Positions 2,894 to 15,995 of a stretch of DNA of 49,633 bases are shown one piece after another. Below the pieces are notes generated by a model. That model saw nothing but the letters and a program-made list of their open reading frames with translations, was not told the DNA's origin and did not search any database. The first letter of the stretch is position 1; every line of letters starts with the position of its first letter. Made by a program: the position numbers and the translations under genes. The stretch is from a virus, in IMG/VR virus record IMGVR_UViG_3300024509_000024, positions 1 to 49,633 of that record, one strand, 5' to 3'.

Positions 2894-2970
2894 CACGCAT
2901 TAGCTCAGTTGGATAGAGCAACAGCCTTCTAAGCTGTGGGTCAGGGGTTCGAATCCCTTATGCGTGGCCA
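2894..2970 (+). tRNA. tRNA-Arg (anticodon TCT)
   Basis: All four arms fold: acceptor CACGCAT/ATGCGTG, anticodon stem ACAGC/GCTGT with loop CTTCTAA (anticodon at 2928-2930), T arm with GTTCGAAT, and an encoded CCA. It reads AGA, a codon more useful to the AT-rich half of this phage than to a GC-richer host. Confidence 0.93.
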
Positions 2971-2974
2971 GTTA

Positions 2975-3052
<78 letters not shown>

Positions 3053-3335: not shown

Positions 3336-3359
3336 ATACATATGTTGAAGGAGCGGCGA

Positions 3360-3681: not shown

Positions 3682-3936
3682 ATGGACTTGACCGTAGAAA
3701 TGTATCGTATAGATCGTCGCTGCAAAGCGGGCCGAGTACTAGTAATGAAGCAGGACTACACAGACGTGAGCTGGGCCCAAATGGAGCGCATGTACCCACG
3801 TCGTCCACGCTACATCGTAGAGTTTCACGAGACTTGGGTTACAAAGACTAACCTTATGACGGGCTTGCCCTATCAGGAACGTTACGATACCCCACATTGC
3901 TGTTCAGCAGCCAGCGAGACCTACTGGAGCATGTAG
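3682..3936 (+). CDS. Small phage protein, unknown
   Basis: 84 residues from ATG 3682 with AGGAGA upstream, two bases after the GIY-YIG-like stop, so likely on the same transcript. It is rich in Arg, Tyr and Met, with MERMYPRRPRYIVEFHETW in the middle and a Cys-Cys pair near the C terminus. No family is recognised. Confidence 0.65.
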   Translation: MDLTVEMYRIDRRCKAGRVLVMKQDYTDVSWAQMERMYPRRPRYIVEFHETWVTKTNLMTGLPYQERYDTPHCCSAASETYWSM

Positions 3937-3968: not shown

Positions 3969-3996
3969 ACAGGCTTACAACGTTAAGGAGCGACCT

Positions 3997-4544: not shown

Positions 4545-4571
4545 AGAGACTTAGCAACAAAGGAGCGCGAT

Positions 4572-4953: not shown

Positions 4954-4982
4954 AGACACACATTAACACAAAGGAGCGTGAA

Positions 4983-5453: not shown

Positions 5454-5486
5454 AGAGGTATGTTCAACAAATGCATAGGAGCGAAA

Positions 5487-6560
5487 ATGCCAGCAGTAAT
5501 TGAGATTCGTGAGGGTTCGTATAAGATCCGTGGCTCAGATGTGAGCATGGCCGGTAACCGTTTCGAACTAGTAGAGCAATACAAAGAAGGTGCTCAGGGT
5601 GGTTATGTAACCGTAGAAGGTGGCTCTGTACAGCCTGCTAACCCTGGCATTCCAGATCGTAAGATCCGTATTCGTTGCAGTTCAGCACAAAGTTACATGA
5701 TTGTCGCCGGTGAAGTGCCAGCAATGCCCGCAGGTGATAAAAGTTTGGAGCAGATTAAAATTTCAGATAATGCCGTAGCACACGAAACGGACGAGCAGAT
5801 CATCGAACGTCTTCGTAACCGTTTTGACGTGCTCAAAGATATGACCAAAGCAGTCAAAGAAGGTACCGTGCGAGCTATGATCGTCACAGGCCCTCCAGGC
5901 GTGGGCAAGAGCTTTGGTGTAGAAGAAGTACTAAGCAAGGACGATCTCTTTGATATGATGGGTCAGCGCAAGCCCAAATATGAGATTGTCAAAGGCGCAA
6001 TGTCAGCAGTGGGTCTGTACAGCAAGCTCTATCACTACAGCGAAAAAGGCAATGTTATCGTGTTTGATGACTGCGACTCTGTGCTGTTGGATGACCTTAG
6101 CCTTAATATTTTGAAGGCTGCTCTGGACTCTAGCAAGAAGCGTACTATCTCTTGGAACACTGACAGCCGTGTTCTGCGTTCAGAAGGAGTGCCAGATCGC
6201 TTTGAATTTAAAGCAGGCGCTATCTTTATCACTAACATCAAGTTTGAGAATGTGCGTTCTAAGAAACTGCAGGATCACCTTGCCGCTCTTGAAAGCCGTT
6301 GCCACTACATTGATCTTCAAATGGACACAGATCGCGAAAAGGTCTTGCGCATTAAGCAGATCACCCAAGATGGCATGTTGGACAGCTACGAGTTTGAAGA
6401 CTGCGTTAAGGATGAGATCATTGATTACATTCTTGAAAAACGAGCACAAATGCGTGAGCTGAGCCTGCGTACGGTACTCAAGGTAGCAGACCTGCGCAAG
6501 AGCTTTCCTACAAATTGGAAGAGCATGGCAGAAGTTACCGTTATGAAGCGAGGTGCCTAA
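5487..6560 (+). CDS. AAA+ ATPase
   Basis: 357 residues. Walker A GPPGVGKS is at residues 135-142 and Walker B IVFDDCD at 191-197; the following region has a Ser-rich sensor area and arginines (LESRCHY) that could supply the finger. The first 100 residues form a separate strand-rich domain seen before the ATPase core. Likely an oligomeric remodelling ATPase. ATG 5487 is set by GGAGCG at 5478; ATG 5460 in frame has no ribosome site. It heads a unit with the GcrA-like and membrane genes, close to the MoxR/VWA pair, so it may share a substrate with them. Confidence 0.85.
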   Translation: MPAVIEIREGSYKIRGSDVSMAGNRFELVEQYKEGAQGGYVTVEGGSVQPANPGIPDRKIRIRCSSAQSYMIVAGEVPAMPAGDKSLEQIKISDNAVAHETDEQIIERLRNRFDVLKDMTKAVKEGTVRAMIVTGPPGVGKSFGVEEVLSKDDLFDMMGQRKPKYEIVKGAMSAVGLYSKLYHYSEKGNVIVFDDCDSVLLDDLSLNILKAALDSSKKRTISWNTDSRVLRSEGVPDRFEFKAGAIFITNIKFENVRSKKLQDHLAALESRCHYIDLQMDTDREKVLRIKQITQDGMLDSYEFEDCVKDEIIDYILEKRAQMRELSLRTVLKVADLRKSFPTNWKSMAEVTVMKRGA

Positions 6561-6802: not shown

Positions 6803-6992
6803 CATCTTTACAATTGCCCTGCTGGCGCTTGTAATCGTATTCTTTTTTGCCGTAGGTCCTATCCTGGTAATTTGGAGTATGAATACACTATTCCCCGTGT
6901 TGGCCATTCCGTATACGTTTTGGACATGGTTAAGCGTGGTCTTGCTCGGCGCATTCTTTCGAGCAAATGTTTCCATTAAACGGAAAGATTGA
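6792..6992 (+). CDS. Two-span membrane protein
   Basis: 66 residues. Start ATG 6792 is preferred because GGAG lies eight bases upstream; ATG 6786 is only one base from it. Two hydrophobic spans (about residues 5-29 and 38-58) are separated by a short loop with Pro-Tyr-Thr-Phe-Trp-Thr-Trp, and the tail is basic. A similar protein occurs in other phages, function unknown; a holin is possible but the early context argues against it. Confidence 0.7.
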   Translation: MKTNIFTIALLALVIVFFFAVGPILVIWSMNTLFPVLAIPYTFWTWLSVVLLGAFFRANVSIKRKD

Positions 6993-7024
6993 GGTTGCTA
7001 TTTTACAACAAGAATGCTACTATA

Positions 7025-7054
7025 TTGACACGCTGTGGAACACAGCCATATAAC
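7025..7054 (+). promoter_or_regulatory. Sigma70 promoter of the HTH gene
   Basis: TTGACA, 18 bases, TATAAC. It is the only plus-strand member with an 18-base spacer. An overlapping alternative, TTGCTA-17-TACTAT at 6995-7023, would make a tandem pair. Confidence 0.7.
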
Positions 7055-7072
7055 ATAAAGGAAAACACAGAC

Positions 7073-7348
7073 ATGAAACGTATCTCTAAAGACTCAAAGA
7101 CTTTTAAGATTTTTACTGCACTACAAAATGGTGACAAACTAACTGCAAGCCAAGCTGAGAAGCGTTTTGGCGTAAAGAACCTGGCTGCTGAAGCAAGCCG
7201 TCTCCGCCAAGCTGGTTATGCTGTTTATGCTAACTCTCGCAAGGCAGGTAATGGTGTTACCGTTACTGAGTATGAACTAGGCCGTCCTTCACGCGAGATC
7301 GTTGCTCTAGGCTACTTAGCTCGTAACATGGGCATGACATTGGCTTAA
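7073..7348 (+). CDS. Helix-turn-helix protein
   Basis: 91 residues from ATG 7073, with AAAGGA upstream. Residues 1-60 carry KLTASQAEKRFGVKNLAAEASRLRQAGY, a winged-helix type recognition unit in which a phased helix pair is followed by a beta hairpin (VYANSRK..GVTVTEYELG). The tail repeats small hydrophobics. Such short proteins are common in large phages and are likely DNA binding; the target is not known. It is followed by the 7358-7424 hairpin element and a strong terminator, and might regulate the surrounding promoter set. Confidence 0.75.
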   Translation: MKRISKDSKTFKIFTALQNGDKLTASQAEKRFGVKNLAAEASRLRQAGYAVYANSRKAGNGVTVTEYELGRPSREIVALGYLARNMGMTLA

Positions 7349-7424
7349 TAGGTCGCTCCACAAAACCAAGCCGATTCGCTCCCGGGGCGGTTTTGGAATA
7401 GGGTCCTAAGGGCCCTATTTTTTT
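7349..7424 (+). ncRNA. Candidate 3'-UTR RNA with anti-RBS loop, copy A
   Basis: Right after the HTH stop, AAAACC (7362-7367) pairs with GGTTTT (7389-7394), extended by CC/GG over a two-base bulge. The 21-base loop contains CCGATTCGCTCCCGG, shared exactly with copy B at 13309-13323. CGCTCC is the complement of the GGAGCG ribosome site used by ten genes here. A strong terminator follows, giving the hairpin-plus-terminator layout of a small RNA. Function is inference. Confidence 0.45.
7397..7424 (+). terminator. Strong Rho-independent terminator
   Basis: AATAGGGTCC pairs with GGGCCCTATT (one T-G pair), loop TAA, followed by seven T. Confidence 0.92.
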
Positions 7425-7451
7425 GGCCGTTTGTTGCAAAAAAGCCACAGG

Positions 7452-7463
7452 CCGGCACTCTCC
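7452..7463 (-). repeat. GGAGAGTGCCGG dispersed repeat (inverted copy)
   Basis: The minus strand reads GGAGAGTGCCGG. Plus-strand copies lie at 10696-10707 (exact) and 9383-9392 (lacking AG). The 7442 and 10722 copies also share a nearby AAGCCACA. Confidence 0.6.
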
Positions 7464-7470
7464 AAAATGG

Positions 7471-7499
7471 TTGACAGAACTGCTGTTTGATGGTATAAT
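7471..7499 (+). promoter_or_regulatory. Perfect sigma70 promoter
   Basis: TTGACA, 17 bases, TATAAT; spacer TTTGA at 10-14. Drives the 7523 gene. Confidence 0.92.
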
Positions 7500-7522
7500 A
7501 GAGTTATTGTTAAGGAGCGATG

Positions 7523-8167
7523 ATGAGCACATTTACAGCAGATCAAGTTTGGGGCCTAGCTGTTAGGGCTGATACACAGAATGGCGGCTACTGCAAAGAG
7601 CCTGTATTCGCTGCTACCGCTACACACGGGATCGATTACAATAACGTGATCAAACAAGCCAACAAGGTTCTGGTCAAGAACTGGCTCAGAGAGAATGCTC
7701 AGCCTACAGCAGAAGAGATCACTCTTGGCCAAGAGTATCGTAACTATTTCAAAACATTCACCCTCAAAGCACTCACTGGCAAGATCAATGACTTTGAGAC
7801 CACAGCTATGAAGATTGCAGCCAAAGACGAGTTCACTGGCCGTGATATGTTGGACTTTGCTGTTGTCAGCTGTTTACCCAGCGTAGCTCGTCGTGATAAG
7901 GCCCAAACAGAGCTCAAGCGAGAGATCTATCAAAGCGAGCAACTCTCCGGCGCTGTAGGTGATGAGATCGTAGGGGAGATCGAAGTGATCCGCACACGAT
8001 TCAACCCTGAATACAACAAGTATCGCATCACTGCTCGTATGGGTGAGAGCTTTATTGATTTTTGGTACAAGGATGATGTCAAAGGCACTATCCGTATCAA
8101 GGGCAAGATCAAGAATGTTCGTGGCGATAAAACAACACAGCTCAACTATGTTAAAAAAGTTGGTTGA
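7523..8167 (+). CDS. Phage protein, possible OB-fold C terminus
   Basis: 214 residues. ATG 7523 rather than 7520 gives the better six-base distance from AAGGA. The N-terminal two thirds is mixed helix. The last 70 residues alternate strands (IEVIRTRFNPEYNKYRITAR, then IRIKGKIKNVRGDKTTQLNYV), resembling an OB-fold in which strand 4-5 carries Lys-Gly-Lys-Ile-Lys. This would fit nucleic-acid binding, but the family is not recognised. The stop TGA is part of the next TTGACA box. It precedes the MoxR-type ATPase. Confidence 0.65.
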   Translation: MSTFTADQVWGLAVRADTQNGGYCKEPVFAATATHGIDYNNVIKQANKVLVKNWLRENAQPTAEEITLGQEYRNYFKTFTLKALTGKINDFETTAMKIAAKDEFTGRDMLDFAVVSCLPSVARRDKAQTELKREIYQSEQLSGAVGDEIVGEIEVIRTRFNPEYNKYRITARMGESFIDFWYKDDVKGTIRIKGKIKNVRGDKTTQLNYVKKVG

Positions 8168-8192
8168 CAACTGCACCAAGAGGTGCTACAAT
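8164..8192 (+). promoter_or_regulatory. Sigma70 promoter with a dyad spacer
   Basis: TTGACA, 17 bases, TACAAT. The spacer contains a perfect dyad GCACC-AAGA-GGTGC (8173-8186), a possible operator. The -35 box includes the stop codon of the upstream gene. Confidence 0.88.
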
Positions 8193-8244
8193 AATGATAC
8201 TGGGAAAGTAATTGTTTTAACTCTTTTTATTAGCGAGGTCTAGA

Positions 8245-9330
8245 ATGGCAAAAGCACAAGACGTTTCCGTCCGTCAAGTTGGCCCTAAGGGTGCCAAAAA
8301 AGCAATCCGTCACGCAATTAAAATGCGTCGTCCTGTATTCCTGTGGGGCCCTCCAGGTATTGGTAAGTCCGATCTCGTGAAGCAGATCGGTGATGATTCC
8401 AACCGTGAGGTTATTGATGTGCGCCTAGCACTTTGGGAACCCACCGACATCAAAGGTATTCCGTATTACAACGCAGACCAGGGCAAGATGGTTTGGGCTC
8501 CTCCCGCAGAACTGCCCATTGACCCAGAGTCCACTGCTATCATCTTCTTGGATGAATTGAACTCTGCTCCTCCTGCTGTTCAGGCCGCGGCCTATCAGTT
8601 GGTGCTGAACCGTCGTGTTGGTACCTATGTTCTGCCTAAGGGTGTTGACGTAGTCGCCGCTGGTAACCGTGAAGGTGACCGTGGTGTTACCTATCGTATG
8701 CCTGCTCCGTTGGCTAACCGCTTCCTGCACTTGGAAATGAAGGTGGACTTTGATGACTGGCAAGATTGGGCTACCCTTAACAAGGTGCATCCTGAGGTTG
8801 TAGGTTATGTGGGTTTTGCCAAGCAAGACTTGTATGACTTCGATCCTAAGAGCCCTAGCAAGTCATTTGCTACTCCTCGTTCTTGGAGTTTCGTCAGCGA
8901 CCTGTTAGGTGATGACGGTGTTGACGAAGATACTTTGTCTACATTGGTAAGTGGTGCTATTGGTGACGGCTTGGCTGTTAAGTTTATGGCTCACCGTAAG
9001 ATTGCTGGCAAATTGCCTAAGGCAGAAGACATCCTTATTGGCAAGGTCAAGGACCTTCAGATCAAGGAAGTGTCAGCGATGTATTCTTTGACCGTTTCAT
9101 TGTGCTACGAGTTGAAAGACCGTGCAGAGAAAAAGGTTAAAGATTGGGATGCTCAGGCAGACAACTTCTTCCGCTACATGATGGACAATTTCCCAACTGA
9201 GATTGTGGTCATGGGTGCTAAGACTGCTCTTACCAACTACGACTTGCCGTTGGACGCTACAAAGATGAAGAGCTTTGACGAGTTCCACAAGCGTTTTGGT
9301 AAGTATGTTTTGAAAGCGATGGAGAATTAA
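8245..9330 (+). CDS. MoxR-type AAA+ ATPase
   Basis: 361 residues. Walker A GPPGIGKS at 35-42, Walker B FLDE at 101-104, sensor Asn in VVAAGNREGDRG near 141, and the arginine finger in PAPLANRF near 159: the full set for a MoxR/RavA-like ATPase. The C-terminal 150 residues form the helical lid plus a phage-specific extension. MoxR ATPases act as chaperones with a VWA-domain partner, and such a partner is encoded next (9488). A long leader with GAGG precedes the ATG. Family is secure, phage role unknown. Confidence 0.92.
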   Translation: MAKAQDVSVRQVGPKGAKKAIRHAIKMRRPVFLWGPPGIGKSDLVKQIGDDSNREVIDVRLALWEPTDIKGIPYYNADQGKMVWAPPAELPIDPESTAIIFLDELNSAPPAVQAAAYQLVLNRRVGTYVLPKGVDVVAAGNREGDRGVTYRMPAPLANRFLHLEMKVDFDDWQDWATLNKVHPEVVGYVGFAKQDLYDFDPKSPSKSFATPRSWSFVSDLLGDDGVDEDTLSTLVSGAIGDGLAVKFMAHRKIAGKLPKAEDILIGKVKDLQIKEVSAMYSLTVSLCYELKDRAEKKVKDWDAQADNFFRYMMDNFPTEIVVMGAKTALTNYDLPLDATKMKSFDEFHKRFGKYVLKAMEN

Positions 9331-9388
9331 GACCTCGCCCATCGCCGGGCGGGGGCTCACCCAGGGCTTCCGCCCACCTTTTGGAGTG

Positions 9389-9431
9389 CCGGGCGGTGTT
9401 GTAAATACGCAACATCGTCCGGTTTCTTTTT
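9389..9431 (+). terminator. Strong terminator after the MoxR gene
   Basis: CCGGGCGGTGTTG pairs with CAACATCGTCCGG (13 bp, two G-T pairs), loop TAAATACG, then TTTCTTTTT. Upstream, GGGCGG/CCGCCC at about 9345-9375 forms another GC-rich hairpin. Confidence 0.88.
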
Positions 9432-9433
9432 GG

Positions 9434-9462
9434 TTGACAAACCCGGATCCTGGTGCTATAAT
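9434..9462 (+). promoter_or_regulatory. Perfect sigma70 promoter
   Basis: TTGACA, 17 bases, TATAAT, starting two bases after the terminator T run. Spacer TGG at 12-14. Confidence 0.93.
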
Positions 9463-9487
9463 ATACACATACTAAGGAGAGCGACTA

Positions 9488-10696
9488 ATGTCTACAAACA
9501 TCGTTGATAAATTAACTACTGCACGGGTCGGTCTATTGCTCAAAGCACCGTTCTTTGGCAACATGGCAACTCGTATGCGTTTAGTCTGTGCTGACGACTG
9601 GTGCCCTACTGCGGCGACCAATGGCCGTGACTTTTATTACAACACAAAGTTCATCGAAAAACTTTCAGAGAAAAAACTAGAGTTCCTGTTTGGTCACGAG
9701 ATCCTTCACTGCGTGTTTGATCACTTTGGCCGTGTAGGTAGCCGTGATCGTCAACTTTCTAACATCGCACAGGACTTTGCTGTAAACCAAATCCTTGTAG
9801 ACGAGCGTATTGGTGAGAAGATCACTGAGGTTAAGATCTGTTATGATCCTAAGTTCCGTGGACTTGCTTGGGAAGAAATCTACGATATTCTGTATGAAAA
9901 AGCAGAGAAGATTCCTATGGATCAACTGATGAAAGAGTTGGGCGATCTGTTGGACGAGCACATTAAGGAACAAGAGGGTGCTGGCTCAGAAGATGACAAG
10001 ACCAAAGACGGTAAGAGCAAGCCTAGCCTTAGCAAAGAAGAAGCAGAACGCATCAAGCAAGAGATCAAAGAAGCAATGATCCAAAGTGCCGCGGCCGCTG
10101 GTGCAGGCAAGACTCCTGCAGGCATTATGCGTATGATTAAGTCTATGACTGAGCCTAAGATGGACTGGCGTCAGTTGGTGCAACAAGAGATCCAAAGCAT
10201 TGTTCGCAACGACTACTCCTTCCAGCGTGTTAATCGCAAGAGTATGCACTCAGGCGCAATCTTGCCAGGCATGAAAGAAGCAACTACCATTGACGTGGCT
10301 ATTGCTGTTGACATGAGTGGTAGTATTGGTGAAGAAGATGCCAGCACATTCCTTTCGGAGATCAAAGGCATCATGGACCAATACGAGGACTTCAAGATCA
10401 ACCTGTGGTGCTTTGACACAGAGATCTATAACCCACAAGAGATCACTCATGACAACTCACATGACTTGCTTGAGTATGAACCTCAAGGTGGCGGTGGCAC
10501 AGACTTTGATGTCAACTTTACCTACATGGAAGAGAATGACATTCGCCCTAAGAAGTTCATTATGTTCACAGACGGCTATCCCTGTGGTAGTTGGGGTCCT
10601 GAGGACTACTGCGACACAATCTTTATCGTTAAGGGCAATACACAAGCAGAGGCGCCCTTTGGTCAAACGGTGATCTACGAAAAAGAGGCGGGCTAG
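9488..10696 (+). CDS. VWA-domain protein with metallopeptidase-like N terminus
   Basis: 402 residues, ATG 9488 after AAGGAGA. The N-terminal domain has HEILH at 70-74 with a further His at 79, as in the putative metallopeptidase domain of the DUF2201-type proteins. A charged Lys/Glu linker (about 155-200) leads to a VWA-like domain with MIDAS residues DMSGS (275-279), Thr 338 in GGGGTDF and Asp 362 in FTDG. It is the expected partner of the MoxR ATPase encoded just upstream. Whether HExxH is catalytic is unknown. Confidence 0.88.
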   Translation: MSTNIVDKLTTARVGLLLKAPFFGNMATRMRLVCADDWCPTAATNGRDFYYNTKFIEKLSEKKLEFLFGHEILHCVFDHFGRVGSRDRQLSNIAQDFAVNQILVDERIGEKITEVKICYDPKFRGLAWEEIYDILYEKAEKIPMDQLMKELGDLLDEHIKEQEGAGSEDDKTKDGKSKPSLSKEEAERIKQEIKEAMIQSAAAAGAGKTPAGIMRMIKSMTEPKMDWRQLVQQEIQSIVRNDYSFQRVNRKSMHSGAILPGMKEATTIDVAIAVDMSGSIGEEDASTFLSEIKGIMDQYEDFKINLWCFDTEIYNPQEITHDNSHDLLEYEPQGGGGTDFDVNFTYMEENDIRPKKFIMFTDGYPCGSWGPEDYCDTIFIVKGNTQAEAPFGQTVIYEKEAG

Positions 10697-10730
10697 GAGA
10701 GTGCCGGGGGGTGTGGCTAAAAAGCCACAC
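10696..10730 (+). repeat. GGAGAGTGCCGG repeat plus hairpin
   Basis: GGAGAGTGCCGG at 10696-10707 begins in the VWA stop codon. It is followed by an 8-bp hairpin GTGTGGCT-AAAA-AGCCACAC (10711-10730). No T run follows, so it may stabilise rather than end the transcript. Confidence 0.6.
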
Positions 10731-10740
10731 TTCCACCAAA

Positions 10741-10750
10741 GGCCCCGCTG
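10741..10750. repeat. GGCCCCGCTG dispersed repeat
   Basis: Fifth copy of the 10-mer, 8 kb from the others. It lies 29 bases upstream of a perfect promoter and is followed, as at 2348, by CTAYAC and an alternating purine-pyrimidine tract. Confidence 0.75.
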
Positions 10751-10779
10751 CTACACGTATGCACGTATATAGATTATGG

Positions 10780-10808
10780 TTGACAGATAGATAATTTGGC
10801 CTTATAAT
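10780..10808 (+). promoter_or_regulatory. Perfect sigma70 promoter
   Basis: TTGACA, 17 bases, TATAAT, with TTTGG at spacer 10-14. It serves the four-gene unit 10840-11505. Confidence 0.93.
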
Positions 10809-10839
10809 ACATATACACAGACACAGAAAGGGGCGGTAA

Positions 10840-10983
10840 ATGGAACTAGTAATTGCATTTGTCCTTGGGCTCATAGTAATGGACTTAATGTGGGCCTGGC
10901 GCTTGGGCATCCCTCAGATGCTTTGGGCACGTTGGAAGTATCGCAAAGTCCTTAAACAAATGTCAGAACAGGAGCAATCATGA
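10840..10983 (+). CDS. 47-residue membrane protein
   Basis: ATG 10840 after AAAGGGGCGG. One hydrophobic span at residues 3-18 (VIAFVLGLIVMDLMW), then a basic Trp/Arg region and a polar Gln/Glu tail. This would fit an N-out/C-in inner-membrane protein. First of four genes joined by four- or one-base overlaps. Function unknown. Confidence 0.6.
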   Translation: MELVIAFVLGLIVMDLMWAWRLGIPQMLWARWKYRKVLKQMSEQEQS

Positions 10984-11108
10984 AAGTATTCATCGCAGGT
11001 ACAATCTTTGGTCTCGTAGTGGCTACCGTAGGATTATCGGGCATCGCTAAGATCTTCGATAATGGGGTTGCCAAAGTCCAGGAAGTATCTAAAGAAGCTG
11101 CGAAGTAA
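10980..11108 (+). CDS. 42-residue membrane protein
   Basis: ATGA overlap with the previous gene, with GGAGCA upstream. The N-terminal half is one hydrophobic span with Gly residues (FIAGTIFGLVVATVGLSGIA), followed by a short amphipathic helix with VAKVQEVSKEA. Peptides of this type are common in large phages. Function unknown. Confidence 0.6.
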   Translation: MKVFIAGTIFGLVVATVGLSGIAKIFDNGVAKVQEVSKEAAK

Positions 11109-11317
11109 TGCCTAGATACACGTTCTGGCGCAATTCTATAATCTGCGAAGTCTACGAACTTGAAGCAGGTTCAGAAGAGGAAGCACGTGAAAAGCTCATG
11201 AATGGAGAAGTGGACCCAATGACCGAAGAATGGGTTGATTGGGCCACTGACAACTTCGAGCTGGAAGACGTGGAAGATGAATTGGTAACATTCTTAAAAT
11301 CAAAGGAAACAACATGA
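11108..11317 (+). CDS. Small acidic protein
   Basis: 69 residues, TAATG overlap. Pattern: an N-terminal strand (RYTFWRNSIICEVYELEA), then SEEEAREKLMNGEV, then an acidic helix DVEDELVTFL. The strand-helix arrangement is frequent in small phage proteins but has no known function. Confidence 0.65.
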   Translation: MPRYTFWRNSIICEVYELEAGSEEEAREKLMNGEVDPMTEEWVDWATDNFELEDVEDELVTFLKSKETT

Positions 11318-11505
11318 CTTTTGGTATGATCGTTGAAGATCCCTTTTATGATGAAGATGGTGTACTCATTGACGAGGATGCTGATTGGGAAGATGTTGCA
11401 GACCCGGGCGACCTAGTCTACAACGAAGACATCGGCGAATGGTTGGACAAAGAGCTAGCTGCTCACGATCGCACCTACAGCCCATTCGATACAATCAACA
11501 GCTAA
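11314..11505 (+). CDS. Very acidic 63-residue protein
   Basis: ATGA overlap. About a third of the residues are Asp or Glu (DEDGVLIDEDADWEDVADPGD) with few Lys, so it would be strongly negative and could act as a DNA mimic or partner-binding peptide. That role is inference; no family recognised. It closes the 10840 unit. Confidence 0.65.
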   Translation: MTFGMIVEDPFYDEDGVLIDEDADWEDVADPGDLVYNEDIGEWLDKELAAHDRTYSPFDTINS

Positions 11506-11520
11506 CGTACATCATTTTGG

Positions 11521-11549
11521 TTGACAACTTGGCTTTTTGGTGTTAAACT
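11521..11549 (+). promoter_or_regulatory. Sigma70 promoter with overlapping palindrome
   Basis: TTGACA, 17 bases, TAAACT. Spacer TTTTTGG at 8-14. The dyad ACTATAGGCATAGT at 11547-11560 overlaps its -10 box. Confidence 0.78.
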
Positions 11550-11560
11550 ATAGGCATAGT
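11547..11560. promoter_or_regulatory. Candidate operator ACTAT-N4-ATAGT, site 1
   Basis: ACTATAGGCATAGT is an inverted repeat of five bases per arm. The same half-sites with four-base centres recur at 15970-15983 and 27957-27970, each on a promoter. Confidence 0.5.
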
Positions 11561-11574
11561 GAAAGGAGCCAGCT

Positions 11575-11778
11575 GTGAATCAAAATGAATTTGAATACCT
11601 GAAGCGAGCCGTTGATGCATTGGGATCGTCAGAGACAACTCCGATGGCCCGTGTCAAGATCTTAAGGACGATGGAGCAGATCGCCGGACGCTGTGCCGTG
11701 GTGATCGAGAGGGAGTTCCAAGACCGCGTAGATCAGAACTTGGCCAATGCACATTTGGTTGACCTTTTGAGAAAATGA
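11575..11778 (+). CDS. Small helical protein, GTG start
   Basis: 67 residues from GTG 11575 after AAAGGAGC. Mostly helical and charged, with one Cys (GRCAVVIEREFQDRV). Its last codons (His-Leu-Val-Asp-Leu-Leu) hold the -35 box of the next promoter. Function unknown. Confidence 0.65.
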   Translation: MNQNEFEYLKRAVDALGSSETTPMARVKILRTMEQIAGRCAVVIEREFQDRVDQNLANAHLVDLLRK

Positions 11779-11787
11779 TTGTATAAT
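11759..11787 (+). promoter_or_regulatory. Sigma70 promoter inside a coding end
   Basis: TTGACC, 17 bases, TATAAT. The -35 box lies within the 11575 gene. Spacer TGA at 12-14. Confidence 0.87.
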
Positions 11788-11803
11788 TTTAACACTAACT
11801 TAA

Positions 11804-11812
11804 GGAGCGAAT
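11804..11812 (+). promoter_or_regulatory. Extended ribosome site GGAGCGAAT
   Basis: The best of the ten GGAGCG sites. Nine bases, GGAGCGAAT, are the exact complement of ATTCGCTCC in the loops at 7373-7382 and 13312-13320. The bases after GGAG do not extend pairing with a normal 16S tail, so their conservation needs another reason. Confidence 0.6.
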
Positions 11813-12439
11813 ATGCCTAATTGGTGCAACAACAACTTGACGCTGGAGCATGATGATCCAGCAATGATTACCCGTGCTAAAGAAGCACTTGATCGTGGAG
11901 AGTTCCTGCAGGAGTTTATTCCTGTGCCCAAAGAACTCACAGAGACCATGGCAGGATCCTACGGGGATGATGCCAAACAAAAGGATCTGGAAGCACAGAT
12001 GAAAGCCAATGTGGCCAAATATGGCTACAGCAACTGGTATGACTTCTGCGTGGGTGAATGGGGAACCAAATGGGATGTAGGCGGTGATGGACAAAGCGAC
12101 ATCCACCCAGACGGTAAGAGTCTATTCACTTCTTTTGATTCAGCATGGTCACCACCCGTGAATGCTTATCAGAAGTTGGAACAACTTGGCTTCCGTGTGA
12201 ACGCAATGTTCTACGAATCCGGTATGGCATTTGCTGGTATTTACGAAGATGGCAACTGCGAGGACTTTAGCCTAGAAGGCATGAGTGCCGATGAGATCGA
12301 GCAGAACTATCCAGAGTTGGACGAAGCATTCTGCATCGCCGAGGCTATCCGTGAATTCCAGGAAGAGGACGAAGAGCTCACAGAGTGGATCAAGGATGGT
12401 GTTGAGCAGAACAAGAAACTAGGACTTGTTTCAGAATGA
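11813..12439 (+). CDS. Api92-like / DUF1281-type phage protein
   Basis: 208 residues. The opening MPNWCNNNLTLEHDD, the GEFLQEFIPVPKEL segment, NWYDFCVGEWGTKWDV and the W-x-P-P region identify the Api92-like ferredoxin-fold family spread through phages and mobile elements. Its function is not established. The long acidic tail (EFQEEDEELTEWIKDG) is typical. ATG 11813 sits right after GGAGCGAAT. First of a three-gene unit. Confidence 0.87.
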   Translation: MPNWCNNNLTLEHDDPAMITRAKEALDRGEFLQEFIPVPKELTETMAGSYGDDAKQKDLEAQMKANVAKYGYSNWYDFCVGEWGTKWDVGGDGQSDIHPDGKSLFTSFDSAWSPPVNAYQKLEQLGFRVNAMFYESGMAFAGIYEDGNCEDFSLEGMSADEIEQNYPELDEAFCIAEAIREFQEEDEELTEWIKDGVEQNKKLGLVSE

Positions 12440-12735
12440 TGCACATTGTTAAACTCGACAAGAGATACGATGGTTATGGAAGATTTAGCCATCGTGTCGA
12501 GTTTATCAGTTATGGCGCAGGTGCGAGGCTTACAGATCAAAAGAATTGGATTAAGTCTCGCAACTACTTGTGGACGCAATTCGGTCCGAGTGCCGAATTG
12601 CACCTAGCTCGCCCAGAGTTATTCGATGGGGTCCAACCAAAATGGGCCTGGGATGATTCTAAGAGTGCTATATATTTGAAAGACGAATCTTACACAATGT
12701 TCGTTTTGAAATGGGAGTCATGGCAAAATGCCTAG
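12436..12735 (+). CDS. Conserved-looking phage protein, unknown
   Basis: 99 residues, ATGA overlap with the Api92-like gene; a second ATG at 12439 is equally possible. The middle holds WIKSRNYLWTQFGPSAEL and the end PKWAWDDSKSAIYLKDESYTMFVLKW, a pattern seen in other phage genomes. Trp-rich, compact. No function can be given. Confidence 0.7.
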   Translation: MMHIVKLDKRYDGYGRFSHRVEFISYGAGARLTDQKNWIKSRNYLWTQFGPSAELHLARPELFDGVQPKWAWDDSKSAIYLKDESYTMFVLKWESWQNA

Positions 12736-12922
12736 AGAGTTTAACTTCAGTTTTCACGTGGTCTGCGCCGGGGACGGCAAGGCAGACGTGGGCCGAGTCG
12801 AAGAAATGATCGATTTGGCCATGCAGGATCTGGTCTACGACGACGAGTTCATCGCCGCCTTGGACGAGAAGGACAGCGTTACTATTCAAGTAATTCCGCA
12901 ATTTGGACAAACAAATGGTTGA
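12728..12922 (+). CDS. Small acidic protein
   Basis: 64 residues, overlapping the previous gene by eight bases. It shows strand-helix-strand (FNFSFHVVCAGDG, VEEMIDLAMQDLV, VTIQVIPQFG), which would fit a small ferredoxin-like fold. The stop TGA is part of the TTGACA box of the next promoter. Confidence 0.65.
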   Translation: MPREFNFSFHVVCAGDGKADVGRVEEMIDLAMQDLVYDDEFIAALDEKDSVTIQVIPQFGQTNG

Positions 12923-12947
12923 CAAACTTGAATAGTGATGCTACATT
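12919..12947 (+). promoter_or_regulatory. Sigma70 promoter
   Basis: TTGACA, 17 bases, TACATT. Spacer TGA at 12-14, and TG adjoining the -10 region. The box contains the upstream stop codon. Confidence 0.83.
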
Positions 12948-13003
12948 ATTAACATGCCCAATAGGCATATCTTTAACACACACACTTTTTGGAGAACTTT
13001 AAA

Positions 13004-13306
13004 ATGGCTACAGATAAGAAATTTGCGGTTGCTGGTGTTTCGACACTGGAAGGTAAGACCAAGCTTCGTTTCGCTAACGATGTTATGCGCATCAAGATCT
13101 TGGCAAAGAACGGTCACAAGGATGTTGAGCTCGTTGAGCTGCCATCAGAGATGACCAAGGCTGAGGCTGTACAACACCTCAAGAGCGTTGGTTTCGGCTC
13201 AGGCAATGCTGCTGTACAAGCTGCGATCGCCTACGCTGAGAAGAAGAATCCAGCCCCTAAAGCTGTTAAGACTACTGCCGCGAAGGCAGAGGCTGTTACC
13301 GCTTAA
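13004..13306 (+). CDS. Phage protein with basic Ala/Lys/Pro tail
   Basis: 100 residues; ATG 13004 follows GGAGA by eight bases (TTG 12989 rejected). The N-terminal 70 residues form a compact domain (LRFANDVMRIKILAKNGHKDVELVELPSEM split by turns) that I have seen in other phages. The tail NPAPKAVKTTAAKAEA resembles histone-H1-type tails and could bind DNA or RNA. The last three codons form the left arm of the 13295 hairpin, so coding and RNA structure overlap. Confidence 0.7.
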   Translation: MATDKKFAVAGVSTLEGKTKLRFANDVMRIKILAKNGHKDVELVELPSEMTKAEAVQHLKSVGFGSGNAAVQAAIAYAEKKNPAPKAVKTTAAKAEAVTA

Positions 13307-13375
13307 ATCCGATTCGCTCCCGGTAGCGGTAACCTTGGGCCCTAGTATGCACACGTATACTAGGGCGTTTTTTTT
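13295..13375 (+). ncRNA. Candidate 3'-UTR RNA with anti-RBS loop, copy B
   Basis: GTTACCGCT (13295-13303, the last codons of the gene) pairs perfectly with AGCGGTAAC (13325-13333). The 21-base loop holds the stop codon and CCGATTCGCTCCCGG, identical over 15 bases to copy A (7371-7385). The stems differ in sequence while the loop is kept, which suggests selection on the loop. A terminator at 13339-13375 completes the unit. Confidence 0.45.
13339..13375 (+). terminator. Strong Rho-independent terminator
   Basis: GCCCTAGTAT pairs with ATACTAGGGC (10 bp), loop of eight bases, followed by G and eight T. Confidence 0.95.
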
Positions 13376-13383
13376 GACTTCGG

Positions 13384-13412
13384 TTGACAACTGGATTAAC
13401 TGATCATATAAT
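13384..13412 (+). promoter_or_regulatory. Perfect sigma70 promoter
   Basis: TTGACA, 17 bases, TATAAT; spacer TGA at 12-14. It begins eight bases after the terminator. Confidence 0.93.
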
Positions 13413-13451
13413 AGTATTAACGAATTGGAGCACAGGAGCTTAAATACACAC

Positions 13452-13778
13452 ATGAGCAAATTAGAATACCTTGCAAGACCTCTGGTAGCATTCGATGCTT
13501 ATAACAAAGATCATAGGCGCTACTACGCAGAGTTCCTAGAATACGGTGGATGGGGGCGATGTCCAGTTCGCTTTATTTGTCCCAGTGATTCCGGTTCAGA
13601 TCTAACACTAATGATCAAGAACCACCTAACTGAATACTACATTGATCGCGAGTTTGGGGGCGGCAAACTGCAACAGCTCAAAAGCGAAGAACTCAGCGAA
13701 ACCGCAGACGAAATGTATCGAAGAGCAGGGAAACTTCGTAAGGAAGCAGCCGCCCTGTTGAATCCCAGGAGAACCTAA
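13452..13778 (+). CDS. Phage protein, unknown
   Basis: 108 residues from ATG 13452; AGGAG lies about 12 bases upstream, a long gap, but the in-frame TTG at 13425 has none. Features: FDAYNKDHRRYYAEFLEYGGWG, a Cys-x2-x-Arg-Phe-x-Cys region, then a long charged helix ending in Arg-Arg-Thr. The early part looks like a small enzyme or binding domain, but no family is recognised. TAATG overlap with the next gene. Confidence 0.65.
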   Translation: MSKLEYLARPLVAFDAYNKDHRRYYAEFLEYGGWGRCPVRFICPSDSGSDLTLMIKNHLTEYYIDREFGGGKLQQLKSEELSETADEMYRRAGKLRKEAAALLNPRRT

Positions 13779-14779: not shown

Positions 14780-14810
14780 ACAAGCTCAACAAACAACTTA
14801 GGAGCGAAAC

Positions 14811-15983: not shown

Positions 15984-15995
15984 AAGGAGCGTGAA

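Follow-up and report, generated by a model that had tools for sequence, protein, structure and literature searches.

The window, i.e., the whole stretch of DNA analysed here (49,633 nucleotides, IMG/VR record IMGVR_UViG_3300024509_000024), contains three genes of interest, all located on the + strand like every feature given below. Gene A (7073-7348) encodes a small HTH_39 (winged helix) protein (PF14090, E 1.4e-7; phrog_4973). Gene B (13004-13306) encodes a 100-aa protein for which the family searches matched no known family. Gene C (5487-6560) encodes an AAA ATPase (phrog_1250) and has its own ribosome site GGAGCG at 5478. The sequence upstream of gene A is AAAGGAAAACACAG, not GGAGCG, and that upstream of gene B is TTTTTGGAGAACTTTAAA. 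Gene B has a sigma-70-like promoter (TTGACA-17-TACATT, 12919-12947, 10/12 matches in the promoter scan); the scan gave none for gene A, where TTGCTA-17-TACTAT was found by eye. The viruses concerned form a group whose members are large, infect bacteria and have not been cultured. No close cultured relative was found by DNA with positions 7000-8300 as the query; the DnaB-like helicase is 51-53% identical to that of PA5oct-like jumbo phages.

The 15-mer CCGATTCGCTCCCGG is present in exactly two copies in the window, at 7371-7385 behind gene A and at 13309-13323 behind gene B, which agrees with the 15-base core that a preliminary description of this DNA had reported for two hairpins. There is no further copy in the window at up to 3 mismatches (expected 0.32; two reached in 2/100 shuffles). 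The open loops of 21 bases reported at the same time are not retained: folding of short stretches predicts that 9 bases, AUUCGCUCC, form the apical loop, which a CCG/CGG helix closes on top of a longer stem. For element 1 (7361-7395), the predicted outer stem is 7361-7367/7389-7395 (7 bp), the inner CCG/CGG 7371-7373/7383-7385 and the loop 7374-7382. For element 2 (13295-13333), the corresponding positions are 13295-13303/13325-13333 (9 bp, including the end of gene B), 13309-13311/13321-13323 and 13312-13320. With more flank (7325-7430) a competing fold is predicted for element 1, the fold of which is thus ambiguous. A third CGCTCC, unpaired, lies directly past the stop codon of gene A (7354-7359) and is a possible extra pairing site; a similar CGCTCC is found ahead of the hairpin in L001, L023, L076 and L115. 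The strong terminator reported after each hairpin is confirmed by the terminator scan for element 2 only (intrinsic terminator, 13339-13374). Behind element 1 a terminator-like hairpin with a U run (7398-7424) was recognised by eye from sequence and fold, and is absent from the scan. Terminator-like sites are not enriched in 6900-13500 (5 vs. 5.4 in shuffles). Rfam at gathering score, applied to the window and 6 loci, returned tRNAs only, i.e., the hairpins match no RNA family described there; its three matches in 7000-13500 are all far under their gathering scores.

The loop is complementary to GGAGCG, and a motif search finds GGAGCG at all ten ribosome sites for which it had been reported. 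They stand in separate places, many with their own promoter-like sequence ahead. CGCTCC/GGAGCG has 17 matches in the window vs. 9.6 expected (17 reached by 1/100 shuffles); a GGAGCG-motif match at 3783 is inside a reading frame. When duplex energies with the loop are computed, 11 of the 87 window genes reach −9 kcal/mol or lower, and the nine best are all marked early genes (the region is taken as early because of its sigma-70-like promoters). The lowest value, −14.3 kcal/mol, is obtained at 11804-11809, where the full 9-base loop match GGAGCGAAT had already been noted as the best pairing. The other GGAGCG sites give (in kcal/mol) −10.6 (1380-1385), −11.4 (3350-3355), −12.3 (3987-3992), −10.2 (4562-4567), −10.4 (4973-4978), −12.4 (7514-7519) and −13.3 (14801-14806), and the variant GGAGAGCG of gene 9488-10696 (9476-9483) gives −9.8. 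The site of gene C (5478-5483) is absent from the best duplexes listed, another start having probably been taken for this gene; that at 15986-15991 comes from the motif search and is not among the energies listed. The values for the carrier genes A and B are −2.3 and −5.0 kcal/mol, respectively. With the same energy measure, letter-shuffled loops reached at least 11 genes in 12/300 cases, because CUCC-rich loops suit many Shine-Dalgarno sites.

The loop is conserved in IMG/VR relatives while the stems vary. The 15-mer matched in at least 119 stretches of this viral collection. Among the matches listed, there are 128 places including the two of the window, of which 102 are behind the three gene families A, B and C, and 26 are others; gene C, a target in the window, itself bears the element in other phages. 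The complementarity of the flanks around the core is above all 500 permutations in each class, the mean best perfect stem for A, B and C being 5.88, 6.0 and 8.8 vs. permutation maxima of 5.53, 4.93 and 5.33. Alternative inner stems (CTG/CAG, GTG/CAC, TCG/CGA, AGG/CCT) occur at places that were not selected by the search. Loci selected through the protein vary too little in the inner 3 bp for good covariation testing. Identical contexts or proteins were counted once (stems, carriers, 3' ends, mini-stems, tree and co-occurrence).

Among the matches listed, GGAGCG is found within 20 nt upstream of gene A in 0/43 distinct proteins and as the ribosome site of gene B in 0/15. For gene C it is found in 25/29 distinct genes, the remainder being without a usable start (the start choice in L111 and the truncated L080 are doubtful, and both were scored as without GGAGCG). 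In class C two cores are in tandem in 28/30, and the second hairpin often has a T run directly after it (28 distinct cases, collected for this very feature). The protein-based sets each contain the best 80 confirmed loci, out of 464 for A, 289 for B and 577 for C; they lean to element-bearing relatives, since the profiles were built from 15-mer loci and only the best 80 were kept. Behind 64 distinct B genes so chosen (best 80 of 289), the 3' end contains the 15-mer in 31 cases, GATTCGCTCC or TTCGCTCC in 11 more, and none of these cores in 16 (too-short stretches excluded: 2, 1 and 2).

In this group, i.e., the GGAGCG-type clade, the word repeated at the ribosome sites (the mark) is AGGAGCGAA. 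GGAGCG is present at the ten sites; the conserved target is rather GAGCGA(A). Sites of the GGAGAGCG form number 17 in ten element-bearing early regions. In the ten element-bearing early regions GGAG is continued as GGAGCG in 73/163 cases vs. 2/53 in six related regions without element (presence or absence was checked in all sixteen); GGAGCG equally frequent without the element, which would have refuted the preliminary description, is not observed. GGAG is continued as CG in 0/6 cases in the window at 20-49.6 kb and in 3/74 in the GAGGGC clade. The mark is mostly confined to one stretch of ~15-20 kb per record (records with places listed).

Element in the 3'-UTR and mark at the locus occur together. 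For gene A (best 80 of 464) both are present in 38 cases, the element only in 2, the mark only in 1 and neither in 9 (p 2e-7); for gene B (best 80 of 289) the counts are 47, 1, 9 and 6 (p 4e-4). These p values are only indicative, because the sequences are related and the profiles were drawn from element-bearing loci. The test scores loop letters and requires no stem; 3 and 1 too-short stretches were excluded. Six of the nine mark-only B loci were inspected: L280 has the core at another place, the record of L273 has it in a different part (L385), and it was not found in the remaining four. A more lenient contingency count, superseded by this test and by the tree, put a few loci in the mismatched class (A 1, B 2, C 1). 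Among them only L185 was inspected; its mismatch depends on two CTCGCTCC places whose letters look like coding sequence.

A related clade uses the ribosome site GAGGGCA, GAGGGC being found there in 55/319 genes vs. 1/432. The hairpins behind gene C in this clade show GCCCUC loops, mostly UGCCCUC, on stems of 5-13 bp; four chosen hairpins with loop GUGCCCUC have 13 both-side changes vs. a shuffled mean of 3.8. On the tree, 23 rows are GGAGCG+CGCUCC, 8 are GAGGGC+GCCCUC and 0 are mixed, i.e., 31/31 rows scored for both traits match (L317, L322 and L324 count as without loop under the strict stem rule, despite a GCCCTC hairpin in each record). From one clade to the other, ribosome site and loop change jointly, and GAGGGCA/UGCCCUC is, in terms of predicted complementarity, a matched pair. 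This natural change at clade level is a single event on the tree, involves many sites and is not an experiment. A broader scan, for any terminator whose loop complements a start site, picked up the UGCCCUC hairpins of L359, L362 and L369 along with many matches that look unrelated; the AUUCGCUCC hairpins were not among its results.

Some records depart from this scheme. L470 has UCGCUCC loops, yet most of its sites are GGAGCA and one is GGAGCGAA. Record G022 (G022/L380) has its own private site, AACGGAGAAAC. A third code in it was rejected: no convincing hairpin was found at 25 TTCTCCG places, the sole 6-bp candidate being in L397, without terminator. No element was seen behind gene C in 11 loci of the L431-L446 clade (by eye, 260 bases). 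Mini-stems of at least 4 bp are in excess around GAGCGA (41/275 sites vs. 18.9 expected, permutation maximum 28) and similarly around GGAGAA (26/189, expected 13.7, maximum 24), but not around GGAGCG (17/287, expected 19.7) or GAGGGCA (6/77, expected 4.7). Kissing loops are therefore rejected as a rule and are at most a minority trait. Protein bS21 was also rejected as the cause of odd sites, being present in 6/21 records, from both code groups and from none. RegA (PF01818) was found in 0/21 records, but the control genomes also gave no match.

The reading that we prefer, with a probability of roughly 0.7, is that early genes are repressed by trans-acting anti-RBS elements, which sit in 3' ends and base-pair with a private Shine-Dalgarno barcode, repression and timing being inferred. 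The pairing between loops and mark, as predicted from sequence alone, is well supported. Comparison of relatives establishes, at this level, both words and the GAGGGCA/UGCCCUC pair; it also shows that the stems covary, that the element's carriers fall into three families, that A and B escape, and that the mark is enriched where the element is present. On the contrary, accumulation of the RNA, pairing in the cell, repression, the early status of the region and timing are inferences, there being no expression or translation data for these uncultured phages in the material used; for a stable separate RNA, the only indications are promoter- and terminator-like sequences. According to this reading, the 3' ends of the short genes A and B would present the single-stranded loop AUUCGCUCC; as their transcripts, or 3' fragments thereof, build up, the early set would be turned down. 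A and B would escape because their ribosome sites are without mark. In phages with hairpins on the ATPase gene C, C would limit itself. The RNA-end regulon pairing with the phage's own GGAGCG sites, proposed in the preliminary description, is thus supported by loop conservation, mark enrichment and the joint change of site and loop in the related clade.

Four other readings must be weighed. The one that survives best, although improbable, keeps the pairing and gives it another purpose, i.e., exclusion of superinfecting phages with the same mark (c4-like heteroimmunity) or sorting into compatibility groups. Each clade has its own mark, which changes as a whole, and, in the available part of PMC12197685, c4 RNA blocks the ribosome site region of ant and is essential for P1/P7 heteroimmunity; however, the targets sit in the phage's own genome, and C carriers would repress themselves. 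Slightly less probable still, hairpin and mark would be binding sites for phage protein(s), RNA- or DNA-binding, with complementarity as a by-product, e.g., of a DNA motif in both orientations. Proteins do serve phages as translational repressors, e.g., RegA on about 30 T4 mRNAs (PMC3014915, as far as it was accessible), but a reader of single-stranded RNA would not recognise the reverse complement, and loop and site change together in the GAGGGC clade. Moreover, these are stem-loops with covarying stems, some with a U run after them; RNA is therefore favoured over a double-stranded DNA site. It is very doubtful that the pairing activates or stabilises, e.g., by shielding marked messages from a GGAG-cutting RegB-like nuclease. 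T4 RegB cleaves early mRNAs at GGAG within their initiation regions and thereby inactivates them (same partial source, PMC3014915), and masking could therefore protect; but GGAG is absent from the GAGGGCA mark, GGAGCGAA does not conform to the RegB consensus GGAGRAYARAA, and translation should not start at a masked ribosome site. Already disfavoured and hardly credible is the reading in which the hairpins are ordinary terminators, or stabilise 3' ends, and have a loop that is like an anti-Shine-Dalgarno by chance; it fits the C-rich loops and the second class C hairpin often directly before a T run, but not the counts for the 64 distinct B 3' ends (15-mer in 31, GATTCGCTCC or TTCGCTCC in 11 more, none of these cores in 16; best 80 of 289), the separate terminator of element 2, or a mark and a loop that co-occur and differ together.

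Repression by anti-RBS elements can be extended to a private translation barcode: a word on a gene set, its anti-word in 3'-end loops of genes that are unmarked (or of an ATPase gene that limits itself), lock-and-key evolution and mutually orthogonal clades, with cluster K mycobacteriophages as perhaps an independent instance. We consider the chances of this wider proposal to be even. It points to a compact way of controlling translation orthogonally. If true, the mechanism would also explain the conservation of post-GGAG positions unable to pair with the usual 16S tail.

The class of mechanism is already known (RNAIII, LhrC, c4); no description of a virus-wide, co-switching ribosome-site barcode was found. 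In Listeria, LhrC pairs through C-rich loops with several mRNAs at their ribosome site and blocks initiation. The C-rich hairpin loops of Staphylococcus aureus RNAIII likewise pair with ribosome sites of several mRNAs and block initiation (PMC2837412, accessible part). As in these two cases, an unpaired C-rich hairpin loop is here predicted to be complementary to the Shine-Dalgarno of several genes. The differences are that: (i) RNAIII and LhrC are bacterial and obtain specificity from longer, differing pairings; (ii) in the virus a single extended site recurs ahead of many genes, and the RNA is carried in the 3' ends of the virus's own genes; (iii) site and loop differ together between clades. 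The c4 antisense RNA of phages P1/P7 has, in the portion of PMC12197685 at hand, stretches, probably located in loops, that complement a ribosome site region, and it blocks translation. It is likewise a phage RNA with a stretch complementary to a ribosome site, but acts, in that portion, on the ant mRNA, whereas in the present case one site is common to many separate genes and the element is carried by others.

The SAS of cluster K mycobacteriophages is a repeated extended Shine-Dalgarno, GGGATAGGAGCCC, before many non-structural genes; its function is unknown, an RNA or protein partner being left open (PMC3203893, partly available). The repetition of an extended Shine-Dalgarno word before many genes is common to both cases; the sequence and the phage group are different, and the available part of PMC3203893 describes no complementary RNA for SAS. 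Compared by eye, neither the mark AGGAGCGAA nor GAGGGCA meets the SAS consensus GGGATAGGAGCCC at up to 2 mismatches. In Adephagia, the stretch separating genes 92 and 93 has a lone SAS in the opposite orientation, within the loop of a predicted hairpin. This inverted SAS is at a reported late transcription start, and on this model a late transcript would silence SAS genes; cluster K may be a second case. This gives a concrete hypothesis for the unexplained SAS, testable in cultured phages.

Finally, as with T4 RegA/RegB, a set of early genes would be shut off at the ribosome site, but T4 does so with proteins; the sites of RegA are rich in A+U, and RegB cleaves at GGAG (both points from the accessible part of PMC3014915). 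If true, the present mechanism would be the RNA counterpart of RegA/RegB, i.e., a whole viral gene set controlled at the ribosome step via one shared, changeable word and a matching RNA.

The window is a 49.6-kb part of a large phage. Family searches place a DnaB-like replicative helicase, a DNA helicase and a DNA primase in it, and UvsX- and gp32-like proteins were recognised by eye; this set is read as T4-like. A 219-kb record (G001) has A and B proteins identical to those of the window and the same ribosome-site spacing. A tRNA-Arg (TCT) gene and a tRNA-Met (CAT) gene lie at 2894-3052. The preliminary description had claimed a hairpin behind each of gene A (7073-7348, + strand, HTH_39 protein) and gene B (13004-13306, + strand, no known family), as well as ten GGAGCG ribosome sites: folding gives both hairpins, and all ten sites are found. 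In the predicted fold of each hairpin, an outer stem leads through an internal loop to a CCG/CGG helix that closes the 9-base loop AUUCGCUCC, whose reverse complement is GGAGCGAAU. By predicted energy, the nine best loop duplexes among 87 predicted genes of the window all belong to early genes with the mark (GGAGCG or a variant form of it); the two carriers, A and B, reach only -2.3 and -5.0 kcal/mol. At the Rfam gathering score, the window and six loci contain no family except tRNA. For gene B, the scan lists both a promoter-like sequence and a terminator; for gene A it lists neither, and both are recognised by eye only.

In ten early regions with at least one element (i.e., a 3'-end hairpin with a loop complementary to the ribosome site), GGAG continues as CG at 73 of 163 sites, and a further 17 sites read GGAGAGCG. 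The corresponding values are 2 of 53 in six regions from relatives that lack any element and 0 of 6 in the remainder of the window. Per whole record, GGAGCG-N1-8-ATG occurs 12-22 times in ten marked records vs. 0-9 times for the reversed pattern. In the records with listed places, most of these sites fall within a single stretch of about 15-20 kb. With the usual 16S tail, the CG after GGAG adds no pairing (the host of the window phage and its 16S are unknown), thus another partner is needed. Within 20 nt before the start, GGAGCG is found in 0/43 A genes, 0/15 B genes and 25/29 genes of a third carrier family in other phages, the AAA ATPase gene C (the other four are cut or without clear start). 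The gene C of the window (5487-6560) carries the mark and lacks an element behind it.

When IMG/VR was searched for exact copies of the 15-base core shared by the two elements of the window, at least 119 stretches matched. Among the matches listed, 128 places (the two of the window included) comprise 52 that follow a relative of gene A, 16 that follow one of gene B, 34 that follow gene C and 26 others, including GC-rich sequence and opposite-strand ribosome sites. In L025, L028 and L047, a late-promoter-like sequence is followed by a ribosome site within the exact reverse complement of the core (CCG-GGAGCGAAT-CGG); the next gene resembles, by eye only, a phage-encoded CsgF. The flanking stems vary yet remain complementary, the mean best perfect stem exceeding all 500 permutations in each class. 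At places not selected by the search, the same loop sits on other inner stems (CTG/CAG, GTG/CAC, TCG/CGA, AGG/CCT). Two successive cores lie behind gene C in 28 of 30 cases, and a T run often follows the second hairpin directly, as in 28 distinct cases; behind gene A there are two cores in L003 and L088 and three in L108. The B loops vary: ATTCGCTCC (33), GTTCGCTCC (7), ACTCGCTCC (3) and others (3) in 46 contexts fitting the loop pattern.

Protein profiles, themselves built from loci with the core, were also used to gather relatives of A, B and C; the best 80 of 464, 289 and 577 confirmed loci, respectively, were kept. Element and mark occur together in 38 of 50 distinct A 3' ends (neither in 9, three exceptions) and in 47 of 63 distinct B 3' ends (neither in 6, ten exceptions). 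Nine of the ten B exceptions have the mark and no element behind B; the core was located elsewhere for two of these nine (L280; L385 for L273) and was not found for the other four of the six examined. It must be noted that related sequences inflate the p-values of such comparisons.

In another clade of gene-C relatives, GAGGGCA precedes the early genes. G007 also uses it; the A protein of this phage shares 76% identity with that of the window. Each of these records shows, in the gene C 3' region, one to three hairpins with a loop containing GCCCUC, mostly UGCCCUC. Four hairpins, chosen for their 8-base loop GUGCCCUC, have stems of 11-13 bp with all cells paired and both-side changes at 7 of 13 pairs; a long U run follows two of them and neither of the others. 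With both codes, the gene C stop codon can fall within the first hairpin (L026, L359). In a tree built from 114 gene-C proteins, code and loop match in all 31 rows scorable for both traits (23 and 8), and each changes once. The joint switch is thus a single event, strong in detail and unreplicated.

Two counter-examples to the matching of mark and loop are G022 and L470. The former (L380, 212000-231999) has a third private ribosome site, AACGGAGAAAC, ahead of at least 11 genes, and no convincing hairpin matching this site was found there. L470 has two perfect hairpins with the 7-base loop TCGCTCC behind gene C (G029, 58639-58672), despite which most of its ribosome sites are GGAGCA.

Another hairpin keeps the loop GGTAGTGT on varying stems (CCTGGG/CCCAGG, CCCGGG, CCGGG, TTAGGG); it is seen in L070, L167, L190, L320, L321 and L331, and lies 3' of gene A in the first three. 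ACACTA, the complement of its loop, recurs in the 5' leaders of these three; the hairpin possibly has a second anti-leader loop. Ribosomal protein bS21 is phage-encoded in 6 of 21 related records (G003, G004, G006, G007, G027, G028).

The likely mechanism is that the loops pair with the mark and thereby mask the Shine-Dalgarno sequence, much as RNAIII masks that of coa mRNA (PMC2837412). Since carriers and targets lie in one region with sigma-70-like promoters, the simplest option for the circuit would be a delayed shut-off. The main alternative is that its purpose is the exclusion of phages with the same mark. For a delayed shut-off, accumulation of the RNAs, repression and timing are all inferred, without experiment, from uncultured phages of unknown host.

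No such elements are described in the portions available of the literature searched, subscription papers being mostly outside coverage (PMC2837412, PMC3014915, PMC3203893, PMC9723584, PMC11373665, PMC12197685, PMC12699233). Cluster K mycobacteriophages repeat GGGATAGGAGCCC (SAS) ahead of many genes, with one opposite-orientation copy reported in four phages (PMC3203893). In Adephagia and Anaya (L491 33686, JF704105 near 58685; L492 34874), the inverted copy, with one mismatch, falls within the apical loop predicted for a long hairpin that lies outside the annotated genes. In Adephagia it sits between genes 92 and 93, at the apparent start of late transcription (PMC11373665, section 19). The region is present in 163 phage records, several of which annotate a hypothetical protein across it. 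Among the phages sampled, all seven with 80% identity or more have CTCCTAT at this place, in six of them (not L497) within the predicted hairpin loop. It is missing from all 11 matches that are more divergent or only partial, as well as from the examined part of TM4, although SAS does occur in the subclusters concerned (PMC12699233); cluster K is therefore only a lead to a second case.
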